From the NCBI RefSeq assembly GCF_001583495.1, contig NZ_LQAQ01000100.1, forward strand, positions 1-64,000: a stretch of DNA of 64,000 nucleotides. The letters are read 5' to 3'. Below, in pieces: positions 18,680-25,957 of this stretch. Under the pieces are notes generated by a model. That model was not told the origin of the DNA and did no database searches. It worked only from the letters and a program-made list of their open reading frames with translations. The DNA comes from Flammeovirga sp. SJP92 (GTDB taxonomy: Bacteria > Bacteroidota > Bacteroidia > Cytophagales > Flammeovirgaceae). Numbering within the stretch: position 1 is the stretch's first letter; each line of letters opens with the position of its first letter. The translations under genes were made by a program, and so were the position numbers.

Positions 18680-18860
18680 TGTAAAAAAATAAAGTATTAA
18701 AAAGTTGCTTTAAAGTACTACTGCCGTAAATATAGAGATAAAAAGTGATCACATACTTTGTTATATTTTTAAGTTCATCAAAAACTTAATGAAATATAAT
18801 TTGTATAAAATTTCATATTTAATTGTGAAATTCGTCCATTATTCATAGTTTTATTGCGAA

Positions 18861-18923
18861 ATGAGAAATTCAGTAGAAAATATCGTAAAGTCATGGTGGT
18901 GGCACTCAGTTAAATCAAATTGA
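18861..18923 (+). CDS. trpL: trp operon leader peptide (attenuator peptide)
   Basis: A 20-residue frame starting at the ATG at 18861 contains three consecutive Trp codons (TGG TGG TGG, 18894-18902) and ends with TGA at 18921. Three Trp in a row in a 20-residue peptide upstream of trpE is the signature of a ribosome-sensed leader. The Trp codons overlap the left arm of the first hairpin, and the stop codon lies in the right arm, exactly as in the enterobacterial trp attenuator. Stalling at the Trp codons would free the second RNA segment. Confidence 0.9.
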   Translation: MRNSVENIVKSWWWHSVKSN

Positions 18924-18930
18924 GTGGCAG
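18901..18930 (+). promoter_or_regulatory. trp attenuator 1:2 pause hairpin
   Basis: Segment 1 (18901-18911, GGCACTCAGTT) pairs with segment 2 (18919-18929, AATTGAGTGGC) with one mismatch and one wobble. Segment 2 (TGAGTG, 18921-18926) can instead pair with CACTCA at 18977-18982 in segment 3, with CAG at 18928-18930 pairing CTG at 18972-18974. This is the antiterminator. Confidence 0.8.
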
Positions 18931-18965
18931 ACGCGTATAGGCTTTATTTTAAAATATATATTGAA

Positions 18966-18995
18966 GGCTCGCTGTTCACTCAGTGAGCTTTTTTT
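18966..18995 (+). terminator. trp attenuator (3:4 terminator)
   Basis: GGCTCGCTG / CAGTGAGCT stem with a short loop and seven T. It lies 72 bases before trpE. Formation excludes the 2:3 antiterminator, because CACTCAG is shared. With Trp-tRNA plentiful the ribosome reaches the leader stop codon, masks segment 2 and this terminator forms. Confidence 0.88.
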
Positions 18996-19066: not shown

Positions 19067-20473
19067 ATGTATCGATTTAATAACACACATGCACAACTAC
19101 TGGCAGACACGGTGACACCAGTGAGCATCTATCTTAGAGTAAGAGATAGATTCGCAAATAGTTTATTATTAGAGAGTTCTGATTACCATGGAGCGGATAA
19201 TAGTTATTCTTTTATTTGCTGTGAACCCATCGCAGAATTTTCAGTTCAGGATAAATTATTAAGGGTTCAATACCCGAATAAAGAAGAGGAAAAAAGAGAG
19301 TTAACAACACATGCAGAGGCATTAAAAGAACTATCGACTTTCTCAAAATCTTTTGAATACGAGCAAAAAGAAGATCAGAAGTTTCCTTCTCATGGACTTT
19401 TCGGTTACATGACGTATGATGCGGTACAGTCCTTTGAGGAAATTACTTTTGATGATGATAAAACAGATACAGGTATTCCTCAAATCAGATATCAAGCATT
19501 TAGATATGTGATTGCGATAAATCACTTTAAGAATGAGTTGCATATTTTTGAACATATTCCTGAAGGGGCTGATTCGGAAAGCAATATTGAGGAAATTAAG
19601 TCTTTGATCAAAAGTAAAAACTTCCCTGCTTACCATTTCTCAAGAACAGGAGAGGAGACGACAAACTTCACAGATGAGGAATTTTTGAAAGTAATAAAAA
19701 GCGGAAAAGATCACTGTTTCAGAGGGGATGTATTCCAGATTGTACTTTCAAGAAGATACCAACAGGATTTCCAAGGAGACGAGTTCAATGTGTACAGAGC
19801 ATTACGTTCTATCAACCCTTCTCCTTATTTATTCTATTTCGATTACGGTACATATAAAATCTTTGGTTCTTCTCCAGAAGCTCAGATTATTATAAAAGAT
19901 AAAAAAGCGACGATTCACCCTATCGCGGGTACTTTCAAACGTACAGGTAATGATAAAGCTGATGCAGAAATTGCTCAAAAGCTTTATGATGACCCAAAAG
20001 AGAACTCAGAACACGTTATGCTTGTTGATTTAGCAAGAAATGATTTGAGTAGAAATGGCGATAATGTAGAAGTAGAGGTATTCAAAGAAATTCAATATTA
20101 CTCTCACCTGATTCACTTGGTTTCTAAAGTAAATGGTCAATTATCAGAAGGAACTGATCCTTTAAGAGTGGTTGCTGACACATTCCCTGCAGGAACACTT
20201 TCGGGTTCACCGAAATACAAAGCCATGGAATTGATTGATAAATACGAAAACGTAAGAAGAAGTTTCTACGGTGGAGCGATTGGTTTTATGAGCTTTGAAG
20301 GTGATTTCAACCATGCCATTATGATCCGTTCATTCTTGAGTTTGGACAATCAATTACACTACAGAGCAGGTGCAGGTGTAGTCGCTCAATCTTCTGAAGA
20401 AAGTGAATTGCAGGAGGTGCATAATAAATTAGCGGCATTGCGTAAGGCAATGGATATGGCAGAAGAACTATAA
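19067..20473 (+). CDS. trpE: Anthranilate synthase component I
   Basis: 468 residues, full length. It converts chorismate to anthranilate together with TrpG. The N-terminal LLLESSDYHG carries the LLES element that binds tryptophan for feedback inhibition. The chorismate-binding core shows FQIVLSRR, IAGTFKRTGND (the GT...R segment), ENSEHVMLVDLARND, FPAGTLSGSPKYKAMELI and YGGAIGFMSF. First gene behind the attenuator, followed by trpG 18 bases later, so it is controlled both at the transcript level and by product inhibition. Confidence 0.97.
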   Translation: MYRFNNTHAQLLADTVTPVSIYLRVRDRFANSLLLESSDYHGADNSYSFICCEPIAEFSVQDKLLRVQYPNKEEEKRELTTHAEALKELSTFSKSFEYEQKEDQKFPSHGLFGYMTYDAVQSFEEITFDDDKTDTGIPQIRYQAFRYVIAINHFKNELHIFEHIPEGADSESNIEEIKSLIKSKNFPAYHFSRTGEETTNFTDEEFLKVIKSGKDHCFRGDVFQIVLSRRYQQDFQGDEFNVYRALRSINPSPYLFYFDYGTYKIFGSSPEAQIIIKDKKATIHPIAGTFKRTGNDKADAEIAQKLYDDPKENSEHVMLVDLARNDLSRNGDNVEVEVFKEIQYYSHLIHLVSKVNGQLSEGTDPLRVVADTFPAGTLSGSPKYKAMELIDKYENVRRSFYGGAIGFMSFEGDFNHAIMIRSFLSLDNQLHYRAGAGVVAQSSEESELQEVHNKLAALRKAMDMAEEL

Positions 20474-20491
20474 TACAGGGAAGAAAATTTG

Positions 20492-21067
20492 ATGAAGGCA
20501 ATGAAAATACTTGTTCTAGATAATTATGATTCGTTTGTGTACAACCTAGTACATTACTTAAGAGAATTAGGGCAGACGGTAGAGATATATAGAAATGATA
20601 AAATCACTTTGAAAGAGGTAGGGAAATATGATAAAATCCTTCTTTCTCCAGGTCCTGGTATTCCATCGGAAGCGGGAATTATGCCTGAGGTGATCAAAGA
20701 ATACGGTTCGTCTAAAAGTATTTTGGGCGTTTGTTTGGGACATCAAGCGATTGGTGAAGCATTTGGAGCATCGTTGGAAAACAATTATCCTTTACATGGT
20801 GTTCAGGATAACGCTCAAGTAGTAACGCCAGATGCGAGATTATTCCAAGGCTTACCCAATACTTTTAAGATTGGGCATTATCATTCATGGGTGATTCAGT
20901 CAGACAGTTTAGAAGGAACACCTTTGAAAGTAACAGCACGTGACGAAAATGGATTTGTGATGGCTGTTCAACACAATGAATTTGATGTACAAGGTGTACA
21001 ATTTCATCCAGAGTCTGTATTGACAGAACACGGGATGGCAATTCTTAAAAACTGGATTCAAGGCTAA
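20492..21067 (+). CDS. trpG: Anthranilate synthase component II (glutamine amidotransferase)
   Basis: 191 residues from the ATG at 20492; the ATG at 20501 (MKILVLDNYDSF) matches the family N-terminus and is equally possible, while the TTG at 20489 is not needed. Class I amidotransferase: nucleophile Cys in ILGVCLGHQAIGEAFG (Cys about residue 83), catalytic His and Glu in GVQFHPESVLTEHG. It supplies ammonia to TrpE. Not fused to TrpE or TrpD. Confidence 0.96.
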   Translation: MKAMKILVLDNYDSFVYNLVHYLRELGQTVEIYRNDKITLKEVGKYDKILLSPGPGIPSEAGIMPEVIKEYGSSKSILGVCLGHQAIGEAFGASLENNYPLHGVQDNAQVVTPDARLFQGLPNTFKIGHYHSWVIQSDSLEGTPLKVTARDENGFVMAVQHNEFDVQGVQFHPESVLTEHGMAILKNWIQG

Positions 21068-21081
21068 CTAATAAAACAACC

Positions 21082-22068
21082 ATGAAAAAGATATTAAACA
21101 GACTTTTTGAATACGGTTCTTTAACGGAACAAGAAGCAAAAGAAACGCTTACTAAACTAGCACAAGGGGAGTTTAATCCTAGTCAGATTGCTGCTTTCTT
21201 GACAGTATATTCTATGCGTAGTATTACGGTAGAAGAGTTGACTGGTTTTAGAGATGCCATGTTGGAGTTGTGCTTGAGAATTGATTTGGATGACTATGAT
21301 GCCATGGACCTTTGCGGTACAGGTGGTGATGGTCAAGATACGTTCAATATCTCTACACTATCCTCTTTTATAGTGGCAGGTGCTGGTCAAAATGTGGCAA
21401 AGCACGGTAACAATGGTGTTTCATCAGTATGTGGATCATCAAACTTAATGGCTCATTTCGGCTATGAGTTTACAAACGACATTGATACACTAAGACGCAA
21501 TTTGGACGAGGCAGGGATCTGCTTTATTCATGCTCCATTGTTTCATCCAGCAATGAAAAATGTAGCGCCTATCCGTAGAGAATTAGGAGTGAAAACTTTC
21601 TTCAATATGTTGGGACCAATGGTGAATCCATCATTCCCGAAAAAGCAAATTGTAGGGGTATTCAGTTTAGAAATTGCACGTTTGTACGGTTACTTGTATC
21701 AACAAACTGACAAGCAATTTGCCATCCTTCATTCATTGGATGTGTACGATGAAATCTCATTGACTTCTCCATTTAAGATTATCACAAAAGAAAGTGAGCG
21801 TCTATTGAAGCCGGAAGATTTAGGTTTGCATTACCAGACAAAAGAATCACTTTTCGGTGGAGGAACAATTGCGGAATCAGCAAAAATTTTCACTGATGTA
21901 TTGGAAAACAAAGGTACACTTCCGCAAAAAGAAGCAGTACTAGCCAATGCCGGTGTAGCGATTGCGACAGGTAAAGGTTTAGCATTTGAAGAAGGTGTGG
22001 CACAGGCCAAAGAATCACTGGAATCAGGTGCGGCACTGAATGCATTTAAAAAATTGATTAATTCATAA
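21082..22068 (+). CDS. trpD: Anthranilate phosphoribosyltransferase
   Basis: 328 residues, family length. It transfers the phosphoribosyl group to anthranilate. The PRPP-binding loop LCGTGGDGQDTFNISTLSS (about residues 76-94), KHGNNGVSSVCGSSNL, and IRRELGVKTFFNMLGPMVNP are all present. 14 bases behind trpG and 29 bases before trpC. Confidence 0.97.
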   Translation: MKKILNRLFEYGSLTEQEAKETLTKLAQGEFNPSQIAAFLTVYSMRSITVEELTGFRDAMLELCLRIDLDDYDAMDLCGTGGDGQDTFNISTLSSFIVAGAGQNVAKHGNNGVSSVCGSSNLMAHFGYEFTNDIDTLRRNLDEAGICFIHAPLFHPAMKNVAPIRRELGVKTFFNMLGPMVNPSFPKKQIVGVFSLEIARLYGYLYQQTDKQFAILHSLDVYDEISLTSPFKIITKESERLLKPEDLGLHYQTKESLFGGGTIAESAKIFTDVLENKGTLPQKEAVLANAGVAIATGKGLAFEEGVAQAKESLESGAALNAFKKLINS

Positions 22069-22097
22069 GGACTATTCGTCTAAATAATAAAAGAGAA

Positions 22098-22880
22098 ATG
22101 ACAATTCTAGATAAAATTGTTGCCCATAAAAAAATCGAAGTAACAGCAAGAAAAGAGTTATTAAGTGTTCAAGATTTAGAAGGAAGACCATTATTTGACA
22201 AAGAACCTGTTTCTGCCAAATCATGGATTACAAGTCCGAATAGATCAGGAATTATTGCTGAATTCAAAAGACAATCTCCTTCAAAAGGTTTGATCAACGG
22301 AACTGCCAAAGTTTCTGATGTAGCTGAAGGGTATTATAAAGCAGGTGCATCTGCCATGTCAGTTTTAACAGATCAAGAGTTTTTCGGTGGAACAGTGGAT
22401 GATTTATTGGCAGCGAGATCTGTTTCTCCAGTGCCCATCATCAGAAAGGATTTTATCGTAGATGAATATCAAATCATTGAAGCTAAATCAATCGGTGCAG
22501 ATTTTATTCTTTTGATAGCCTCTTGTTTGACTCCTGAAGAAAGTAAGCATTATGCTACAGTAGCAAGAAACTTAGGTTTACAAATTCTTTTGGAAGTACA
22601 TGACGAGCAAGAATTAGAAGCTCACGTTTGTGATAAAATGGACTTGATTGGGGTGAACAACAGAAACCTGAAGACTTTCGAAGTAAGTATTGAAACGTCA
22701 AAAAGGTTAGCTGAATTGATTCCAAATGAGTACGTAAAAGTATCAGAAAGCGGTATCAGCAATATTGAAAATATCAAAGAATTAAAGAAATACGGTTATC
22801 AAGGTTTCTTAATCGGTGAGAACTTCATGAAAACGGAAGATCCTGCCAAAGCAGCCATTGATTTTATGAAACAACTGTAG
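22098..22880 (+). CDS. trpC: Indole-3-glycerol phosphate synthase
   Basis: 260 residues, a separate TIM barrel (not fused to TrpF). Ring closure to indole-3-glycerol phosphate. Catalytic motifs: IIAEFKRQSPSKG (with the Lys and Glu of the active site), VLTDQEFFGG, IIRKDFIVDEYQI, IGVNNRNLKTF and VSESGI. Last gene before an apparent terminator; the next pathway gene, trpF, is about 1.2 kb away behind two inverted genes. Confidence 0.97.
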   Translation: MTILDKIVAHKKIEVTARKELLSVQDLEGRPLFDKEPVSAKSWITSPNRSGIIAEFKRQSPSKGLINGTAKVSDVAEGYYKAGASAMSVLTDQEFFGGTVDDLLAARSVSPVPIIRKDFIVDEYQIIEAKSIGADFILLIASCLTPEESKHYATVARNLGLQILLEVHDEQELEAHVCDKMDLIGVNNRNLKTFEVSIETSKRLAELIPNEYVKVSESGISNIENIKELKKYGYQGFLIGENFMKTEDPAKAAIDFMKQL

Positions 22881-22920: not shown

Positions 22921-23319
22921 TTAAAATATTTTCCATTTCTGATTGTCAGTATGAAAACGGATACGGTTGATTTGAGGGTAATAATCAAAGCTTCTGTAAA
23001 ACTGTTCTCTAGCTCCTGACATTTCATATTTACCAAGTACTTTGACATTACTTTGCTTCAAGTAAATCTCAGCAGGAGAGTCTTCCGTTCCATAAACGAT
23101 TACTTTCCCAGACTTATGGTGAATATCAATGGAGTCCGCTTTGATTTCGATAGATGGATCAATAAAGTAAGCCTTTCCTCTTAGACATAACAGGTGTTTT
23201 GGAGCATCAATGTAAGCATTATCAGCACTGTATTCTAGCGATCTTTCACGATCATAGAATTGTTGATTGCAACTAATAATTAGTAAAATGAAACAAGAAT
23301 ATAGTGCTGATTTGATCAT
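22921..23319 (-). CDS. Small lipoprotein with one OstA/LptA-like motif
   Basis: 132 residues, signal peptide with lipobox LLIISC. The mature part has the pattern LRGKAYFIDPSIEIKADSID followed by GKVIVYGTEDSPAEIYL, a short beta-strand unit like the OstA/LptA repeat (G-x-V ... I-x-A-D ... Y-G). The same unit occurs twice in the neighbouring secreted protein, so the two genes are relatives. Both are inverted within the trp locus. They may act on envelope lipid or lipopolysaccharide, but that is only suggested by the motif. Confidence 0.65.
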   Translation of the reverse strand: MIKSALYSCFILLIISCNQQFYDRERSLEYSADNAYIDAPKHLLCLRGKAYFIDPSIEIKADSIDIHHKSGKVIVYGTEDSPAEIYLKQSNVKVLGKYEMSGAREQFYRSFDYYPQINRIRFHTDNQKWKIF

Positions 23320-23374
23320 GTTCTCAATGAATACATTTTGTGCTCACAAAGATATTTAATCTTGAGGATTTATC

Positions 23375-24064
23375 TTATTGAATTAAGTCCAATCTATTAT
23401 CTAATACATTGAACACACAGTTTTTATTGATCTTGAATTCACCTTTTTTGGAAAGCTTATTTACGATTGAGGTAGAATTTGAAGAAAGTATGTTCAAGGG
23501 GTTAACAATTTGAATTGTGATTGGATCTTCTTTAGATCCATAAATAATAAGCTCATTGGTAGTAATATTTTGTTTTACTTTAGAACTCTTGATAATTAAA
23601 TCTTCAAAAGTAATGGATACATTACCGTAATGGGAAATGTATTGTTTATTACTTTCAAAAGTAGAAGAATCTGATTCGGAGATTGGGTATGTAGGTATTC
23701 TAATATCTTGTTCATCTTTTTGAGGTAAGATATTAGGGTTGATCAGTAAGTCCAATTTATAGTCTGAATCTAAAAATATTGGTTTTACAAACTCATCATT
23801 AAGATCAATGATTTTAATAGGATTGGCTTTTGAAGCATAAAAAATGATCACTTCATCAAAAGCATTGTATTTGACACTGTCATTTACAATTAAGAAATGG
23901 CTGATTTCAGTTTGAACATTTCCACTATGTAAGTAGATCTCTGTTTTCTTATCAAAAGAGGAGTGTTCTGATGTGAACTTTGGAGTTAGATTATTTTGTG
24001 CAAATATGATGTTTGGAATAATTGAAAGACAAAGAATGAAGATGCTTGCAATAGTTGTTTTCAT
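23375..24064 (-). CDS. Secreted protein with two OstA/LptA-like units
   Basis: 229 residues with a signal peptide (cleavage near IFAQ). Two related units, KKTEIYLHSGNVQTEISHF ... VIIFYASKANPIKI (about 39-86) and SNKQYISHYGNVSITFEDL ... LIIYGSKEDPITIQI (about 137-185), resemble the single unit in the downstream lipoprotein. Its start is divergent from trpF by only 32 bases. Function unknown; tentative relation to OstA/LptA-type periplasmic proteins. Confidence 0.65.
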   Translation of the reverse strand: MKTTIASIFILCLSIIPNIIFAQNNLTPKFTSEHSSFDKKTEIYLHSGNVQTEISHFLIVNDSVKYNAFDEVIIFYASKANPIKIIDLNDEFVKPIFLDSDYKLDLLINPNILPQKDEQDIRIPTYPISESDSSTFESNKQYISHYGNVSITFEDLIIKSSKVKQNITTNELIIYGSKEDPITIQIVNPLNILSSNSTSIVNKLSKKGEFKINKNCVFNVLDNRLDLIQ

Positions 24065-24096: not shown

Positions 24097-24768
24097 ATGA
24101 ATACTGACAAAAAAATAGGTGAAGTAGTCAATTGGAAGGTCTGCGGAATGCGCGATAAGCAGAATATTTCTGATGTTTTAACATTGAAACCAGACTATTT
24201 AGGCTTTATTATGTATCCACCTTCAAGCAGGTATATTGAAAGAGAAGACGTTTCTTTTTTAGAGCAAAAATGGAACAGCTCAACCAAAAGAGTAGGAGTG
24301 TTTGTGAATGAAACGGTTGAGAATATTCTAGCTTCAGCGAAGAAGTATCATTTTGATGTGATTCAATTACATGGAAGTGAAACACCGGAAGAAGCAAAAC
24401 AATTGAAAGAAGAAGGGTTGGAAGTTTTCAAAGTGTTTGGAATCAAAGATGAATTTGACTTTTCAGTATTGACTCCTTACGAACCTTATGTGGATTACTT
24501 CCTCTTCGATACAAAGTCACCTCAACATGGAGGCACAGGCGAAACATTTGATTGGGGAGTATTAGAACAATATAATTCCACAAAACCTTTTCTTCTAAGT
24601 GGAGGGCTTTCACTTGGAAATATTAAGAATATCAGAAAGTTAGATCATTTACCTTGCAAAGGAATTGATGTAAATAGTAAATTTGAGGTATCACCTGCTT
24701 TCAAAGATATTGAGCAGTTGACTTCTCTAAGCGATTGGGTGAAATCTATCAACAACAAAAACAAATAA
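24097..24768 (+). CDS. trpF: Phosphoribosylanthranilate isomerase
   Basis: 223 residues, an (alpha/beta)8 barrel. Catalytic Cys in KVCGMRD (about residues 14-20) and general acid Asp in [19 protein letters not shown] (about residues 138-156); the [12 protein letters not shown] phosphate loop is present. It isomerises N-phosphoribosylanthranilate. Start is 32 bases from the divergent OstA-like gene; trpB follows after 4 bases, so the two are one transcript with a promoter probably inside the upstream inverted gene or the small gap. Confidence 0.93.
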
Positions 24769-24772
24769 TACG

Positions 24773-25957
24773 ATGACATATCAAGAACCAGATCAGAATG
24801 GCTATTATGGCCAATTTGGAGGGGCATATATCCCAGAGATGCTTTATCCAAACGTGAAAGAATTGAAGGATAATTATGAGGCTATGATGGCCGATCCAAA
24901 ATTTAAGGAAGAGTTTGATGGTTTATTAAAAGATTATGTTGGTAGACCTACTCCTTTGTATCACGCAAAGAAGCTTTCAGAAAAATATGGTGCGAAAATC
25001 TATTTGAAAAGAGAGGACTTGAACCATACGGGAGCACATAAAGTGAACAATACAATTGGTCAGATTCTTTTAGCGAAAAGATTAAAGAAAAAGAAAATCA
25101 TTGCAGAAACTGGTGCAGGTCAACATGGTGTGGCAACAGCTACAGTTTGTGCGTTGATGGGATTGGAATGTATCGTGTACATGGGTGAAATTGACATTGC
25201 TCGTCAGCGTCCAAATGTAGAGCGCATGCGTTTGTTGGGAGCAGAAGTAATTCCTGCCACAAGTGGTTCAAAGACTTTAAAAGATGCAACAAACGAAGCA
25301 ATGCGTCACTGGATTAACAACCCAGATGATACTCACTATATCATCGGTTCAGTTGTAGGACCTCACCCTTACCCTGATATGGTAGCGAAATTCCAGTCTG
25401 TGATTTCTGAGGAGATCAAAGAGCAATTAAAAGAGAAGGAAGGAAAAGAAAACCCTGATCACGTGATTGCTTGTGTTGGTGGAGGAAGTAATGCGGCAGG
25501 AGCATTCTATCATTACTTAAATGAATTGGATGTAAATCTTGTAGCCGTTGAAGCAGCCGGTCTAGGTGTAGAATCTGGTGAGTCTGCAGCAACTACAGCT
25601 TTAGGTACTCCAGGTGTATTACATGGTAGTAAAACGATCTTAATGCAGACAGAAGACGGTCAAGTAGTAGAGCCTTATTCTATTTCTGCAGGTTTGGATT
25701 ACCCTGGTATCGGACCAATCCACGCTTTCTTGTTTGACTCAGGTAGAGCGCAGTTCAAATATGTGACAGATGATGAGGCCATGAATGCAGGTGTTGAGTT
25801 GTCACGTTTGGAAGGAATTATTCCAGCCGTAGAATCAGCACACGCTTTTGCAGCATTAGCAAAAATGGATTTCAAGAAAGATGATGTGGTAGTAGTCAAC
25901 CTTTCTGGTAGAGGAGATAAAGACTTGGAGACGTACATCAAGTGGGGTAATTACTAG
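24773..25957 (+). CDS. trpB: Tryptophan synthase beta chain
   Basis: 394 residues, the normal length. PLP-dependent condensation of indole with serine. PLP lysine in [19 protein letters not shown], phosphate-binding [10 protein letters not shown], and the [13 protein letters not shown] segment are intact. The N-terminus [12 protein letters not shown] is typical of TrpB1. trpA, normally the next gene, is absent; a terminator follows at once. Confidence 0.97.

Follow-up and report, generated by a model that had tools for sequence, protein, structure and literature searches.

The window (the whole 64,000-nucleotide stretch of Flammeovirga sp. SJP92 DNA analysed here) holds a short reading frame with a run of tryptophan codons directly 5' of trpE, and this raises the question whether the trp genes of this bacterium are under classical attenuation and, if so, how the element is related to the trp leaders already described. 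Our results indicate, with a probability of about 0.9, that it is a ribosome-mediated transcription attenuator of trpEGDC, a reading based on the leader frame, the predicted RNA structures, their conservation in relatives and the matched pairing of the arms. Specifically, the leader frame occupies 18861–18923 of the plus strand (ATG at 18861, TGA at 18921–18923) and encodes the 20-residue peptide MRNSVENIVKSWWWHSVKSN, in which three adjacent Trp codons (TGG TGG TGG) fill positions 18894–18902. The frame, the Trp codons and the stop lie exactly where the sequence-only reading had put them. Downstream on the same strand follow trpE for anthranilate synthase component I (19067–20473) and then trpG, trpD and trpC, which make up the remainder of the first gene block (20489–22880). 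trpF and trpB (24097–25957, plus strand) stand beyond two minus-strand genes at 22921–24064, which follow trpC and interrupt the series of trp genes; one of these has a weak LptA/LptD_N match (23.2 bits, cut-off 20.4) and the other has no Pfam match. The sole trpA match in the genome is located on another contig, away from trpB (C93, 145710–146411, locus L061). TrpE itself reads ...NSLLLESSDYHGADNSYS... and does contain the LLES element claimed for it earlier, at residues 34–37. LLES would be the tryptophan-binding element, and feedback inhibition of TrpE through it is a plausible second layer of control.

Between this tandem-Trp frame and trpE lies an intrinsic terminator, so that both parts expected of an attenuator are present, and the leader RNA is predicted to fold in three ways. 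Hairpin 1:2 spans 18885–18947 on the plus strand, with a core of 18903–18911 paired to 18918–18926 and the stop codon in its 3' arm. It had been proposed from the sequence with a pairing about one base off; the hairpin stands and the register is that of the inner nine base pairs just given. Since it extends to 18885–18947, the Trp codons themselves fall within the 5' arm. The antiterminator 2:3 (18921–18982, plus strand; core 18921–18930 with 18972–18982) pairs 18921–18930 with 18972–18974 and 18976–18982, in agreement with the earlier proposal, and is extended inwards by 18932–18933/18970–18971, 18939–18940/18968–18969 and 18942–18946/18962–18966. The last part was likewise expected to fold as a terminator, and terminator 3:4 (18963–18995, plus strand) is predicted with 18963–18974 paired to 18981–18992, a loop at 18975–18980 and a T-run at 18989–18995. 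The fold of the whole leader reaches −44 kcal/mol (z −4.5), and none of 200 shuffles was equally stable.

Folding in stages, with and without masking, gave hairpin 1:2, antiterminator and terminator as the sequence-only reading had anticipated for mutually exclusive structures. The best fold of the unmasked RNA is hairpin 1:2 together with the terminator. A ribosome on the Trp codons was simulated as RNA free from 18906, 18909, 18912, 18915 or 18918, and with the polymerase at 18983 or 18986 the antiterminator is the best structure at all five positions (−17.3 or −19.4). The terminator is best when the RNA is complete and the ribosome has reached the stop codon, simulated as RNA free from 18936. 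It is important to note that in the complete RNA the terminator (−22.0) beats the antiterminator (−17.5) even while a ribosome occupies the Trp codons (RNA free from 18912), so antitermination must be kinetic, that is, the antiterminator has to form first. By computation, a ribosome stalled on the Trp codons releases an antiterminator that is incompatible with the terminator, as indicated both by the staged folds and by the comparison of own and swapped pairing described below. The possibility that arm 2:3 and the terminator form together as a pseudoknot was set aside by inference, because there is almost no linker between arm 3 and the 3' arm of the terminator.

The attenuator would work as follows. 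Transcription is expected to start a few bases 5' of the leader ATG, and coupling of ribosome and polymerase in Bacteroidota is assumed. When charged tRNA-Trp is scarce, the leading ribosome would stall on the three Trp codons, leaving arm 2 (18921–18930, with the stop codon) free to pair with 18962–18982 once this has been made; such pairing would block the terminator and trpE would be transcribed. The stalling and the direction of the response are what we infer from the arrangement. When tryptophan is plentiful, a ribosome at the stop codon would cover arm 2, the terminator at 18963–18992 would form and transcription would end at about 18995. If the leader is not translated at all, hairpin 1:2 would sequester arm 2 and termination would win as well.

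The survey of relatives comprised 84 trpE upstream regions, 83 from genomes of the window's class and one (G241) from the same phylum outside the class. A TrpE match with an E-value of 1e-90 or better was found in 86 genomes; 84 were used, and the leaders of the two left out (G142 and G086; L059 and L060) carry WWW. The count excludes G049, whose trpE is partial (E 1.5e-72), as well as genomes whose TrpE matches were all weaker; being limited to matches at 1e-90, the survey has outside its scope the 152 of 198 phylum genomes of one sampling that lack such a match. The detector called a short ATG-initiated frame that lies between −340 and −60, contains WW, WLW or FWFW and has a terminator no more than 140 bases behind it. 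By this measure 73/84 genomes, from 19/24 families, have a Trp-rich leader and a terminator ahead of trpE, as compared to 0/840 dinucleotide shuffles and 0/84 antisense strands, which indicates that classical trp attenuation occurs in the majority of the surveyed families of the class that carry trpE. The detector was negative in 11 of the 84 regions: no leader was found in families f4 (0/3), f20 (0/2), f6, f9 and f14 (0/1 each), and f1, f15 and f22 contribute one negative member apiece. A plain count of frames with at least two Trp codons had given 76/84 and included unrelated frames (L021, L091, L094); it was replaced by the stricter detector, with its 73.

Within the genus (the window and eight other members) WWW and the arms are kept in 9/9, the arms reading CACTCAGTT or CGCTCAGTT, then AATTGAGTG and CACTC in all nine. 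An alignment of six of the nine members, four rows of which end before the end of the terminator, was used for reading only. The sequence-only reading had looked to relatives for conserved Trp codons and pairing, and both are found there: in the nine genus members, in the 19 families, and in an antiterminator that over all loci is matched to its own terminator. Three loci of the window's own family f1 have alternating aromatic codons in place of WWW (FWFWQW in L013, FWFWYWY in L025 and FWFWYW in L090), and leaders of this FWFW type perhaps sense more than tryptophan.

Spacing among the leaders is too variable for a fair structural alignment, and for this reason loci were swapped in place of a covariation count. 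In all 73 leaders the stretch that follows the Trp codons was paired computationally with its own terminator and with the terminator of every other locus, and the best duplexes were compared. The own pairs sum to −1394.8 and the swapped sets to −1012.4 on average (sd 26.7); of 10,000 swaps none was as good, and with one member per family (19 families) none of 2000 draws matched the own pairing. The matching is true of the sum and not of every locus, since in 12/73 at least 20 terminators of other families pair as well. When the arm-2 region was shuffled, at most 10 of 200 shuffles paired as well in 49/73 loci; the other 24 missed this mark, the weakest being L014, L022, L085 and L099, and in two of the 73 z was at or above 0. 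The computed partner includes bases from the 5' arm, the loop and the 3' arm of the terminator in all loci except L025. Leader regions without their terminators are also more stable than shuffles (median z −2.4, n = 73; 59/73 below −1 and 3 above 0).

These results bear differently on other explanations of the leader. The RNA might respond to translation efficiency or to the overall supply of ribosomes, with Trp codons as one input and without strict stalling on them. The best fold of the untranslated RNA, hairpin 1:2 with the terminator, would suit such a response, as would the three relatives with mixed Phe/Trp/Tyr runs. Closely set Trp codons in a short frame before a terminator, in a peptide whose remainder is variable, argue against it in 73/84 trpE regions, a count for which the detector itself required Trp codons (controls 0/840 and 0/84), and we consider this explanation improbable. 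Still less probable is a small secreted or trans-acting peptide followed by an ordinary terminator, with no attenuation: leader peptides of attenuators can work in trans, as has been reported of peTrpL in S. meliloti (PMC7298713), but a peptide of this kind gives the matched pairing of arms 2 and 3 no role. A riboswitch or T-box, binding a metabolite or a tRNA, could likewise take the form of a conserved and structured 5' leader that ends in a terminator. At the gathering threshold, however, the Rfam matches of the window are to ribosomal RNA families only, and conservation in the genus covers the Trp codons as well as the arms around the stop codon; we regard this as the least probable of the alternatives.

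The known systems closest to this element include two with Rfam models. RF01692 (Bacteroid-trp, the Bacteroidete tryptophan peptide leader RNA) is by name a Trp leader RNA of Bacteroidota, and the window agrees with its description, having a Trp leader peptide RNA before trpE; the 29 loci found through RF01692 likewise have leader peptides with WW or WWW. The model's score for the window is 25.6 bits (cut-off 49, E 1), in a weak alignment over all 131 model positions, and the match stops inside the 5' arm of the terminator. As a direct annotation RF01692 was rejected, the score being below the gathering cut-off. Under stricter filters 27 of 296 phylum genomes have a match above the model's cut-off; a single family (f26) accounts for 25 of these, and the window's order for none. 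All 16 f26 genomes in our survey have a leader before trpE; outside this family the cut-off is reached in one of 57 survey leaders (the window and 56 other loci), namely L096. RF00513 (Trp_leader) gives 21.8 bits over all 100 positions (cut-off 41, not reached) with an E-value of 0.04, better than that of RF01692. RsaF, GibS, trpB (RF04312), Thr_leader and other weak Rfam matches of the window were taken as chance because their scores are far under the cut-offs.

With the E. coli type of trp attenuator the window shares a leader peptide with adjacent Trp residues and three mutually exclusive structures. It differs from E. coli in that arm 3 includes the loop of the terminator plus two bases at the start of its 3' arm, the stop codon is inside arm 2, and the leader starts near the predicted transcription start. 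The trpL attenuator of S. meliloti belongs to another phylum, and its promoter is presumably of another type than the window's. Like the window it has a WWW leader, and its RNA starts directly at the ATG of that leader (PMC7298713), much as is predicted for the window.

The mechanism had been called little described in Bacteroidota, which is right in part only. In Weinberg et al. 2010 Bacteroid-trp is tabled among the Bacteroidetes RNAs that are probably cis-regulatory (PMC2864571), an element of this kind upstream of the F. psychrophilum trp operon has been compared with the E. coli trp leader (PMC6414381), and strong clues for leader-peptide attenuation 5' of amino-acid operons were reported in the same species (PMC9723704). 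RF01692 and the F. psychrophilum papers make the kind already known. Beyond these three papers we found nothing on this attenuator in Bacteroidota, and the available part of PMC6429828 does not mention it. What is new here is a predicted trp attenuator, with strong comparative evidence behind it, from a part of the phylum that escapes the public RNA model; with a repaired model many genomes would gain an annotation.

The start of the leader RNA deserves attention of its own. The promoter consensus of Bacteroidota consists of TTTG near −33 and TAnnTTTG at −7 (PMC7366714). A putative promoter of this type lies at 18823–18853 on the plus strand, with TTG at 18823–18825, a spacing of 20 bases and a −7 box TAGTTTTA at 18846–18853 that has five of the six consensus bases and ends 7 bases 5' of the leader ATG. 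Among the genus members, 9/9 have a TAGTTTTA or TACTTTTA box that is preceded by TTG at the 20-base spacing and followed by the 7-base gap. A search that allowed one mismatch in the −7 box and required TTG 18–22 bases before it found such promoters 5' of 52/73 leaders, as compared to 155/1460 shuffles and 3/73 stretches before trpE itself; before the other 21 leaders the same search found none. The best box ends at most 7 bases (4–7) before the first in-frame ATG in 30/73 leaders and in 15/1460 shuffles. These 30 leaders span 11 families and eight of them belong to the window's genus; to the ninth member the search assigned another, better-scoring box, at 39 bases. Among window genes with free upstream space such a promoter was found for 3/30, at 20, 33 and 40 bases.

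A promoter that ends within 7 bases of the leader ATG would make the leader mRNA leaderless or nearly so, and judged from the putative promoters and start sites this is probably the case in 30 of the 73 leaders. Such short 5' UTRs are seldom used in the two species that have been mapped: about 3.7% of 5' UTRs are shorter than 10 bases in B. thetaiotaomicron (PMC7366714), and 5.5% of mapped mRNAs are leaderless in F. psychrophilum (PMC9723704). The start of S. meliloti trpL RNA at its ATG is a precedent outside the phylum (PMC7298713). If the near-leaderless start is confirmed, coupling of ribosome and polymerase without Shine-Dalgarno initiation could be tested on one small element.

One genus of the window's order includes three genomes (3/8 genomes of its family) in which a tRNA-Trp gene (anticodon CCA) lies directly 3' of the attenuator, behind its terminator: at L017 1382–1455 (G040), at L018 2953–3026 on the minus strand (G055) and at L151 1501–1575 on the minus strand (G351). 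At L017 and L018 it sits between the attenuator terminator and trpE, just before trpE, and G040 and G055 have another tRNA-Trp, 74% alike, at a separate place where tRNA-Thr is found too. We found no paper that joins tRNA-Trp with the attenuator leader of a trp operon or trpE.

A broader reading, to which we give somewhat less than even odds, covers the class and the one genome beyond it. Here the trp attenuator would often act on a leaderless or nearly leaderless leader mRNA (−7 box 4–7 bases before the ATG, in 11 families); the ribosome would bind the 5'-terminal AUG as soon as this emerges, and coupling may be assured in this way without Shine-Dalgarno initiation. In the one genus the switch would have taken over a second tRNA-Trp gene and would thereby control part of the very tRNA whose charging it senses.

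tRNA genes are also found on the other side of the leader. Just upstream of the trp leader there is a tRNA-Pro gene in L020 and a tRNA-Met gene in L022. A promoter of the searched Bacteroidota type was not found at either locus, and the leader may therefore be transcribed together with the tRNA.
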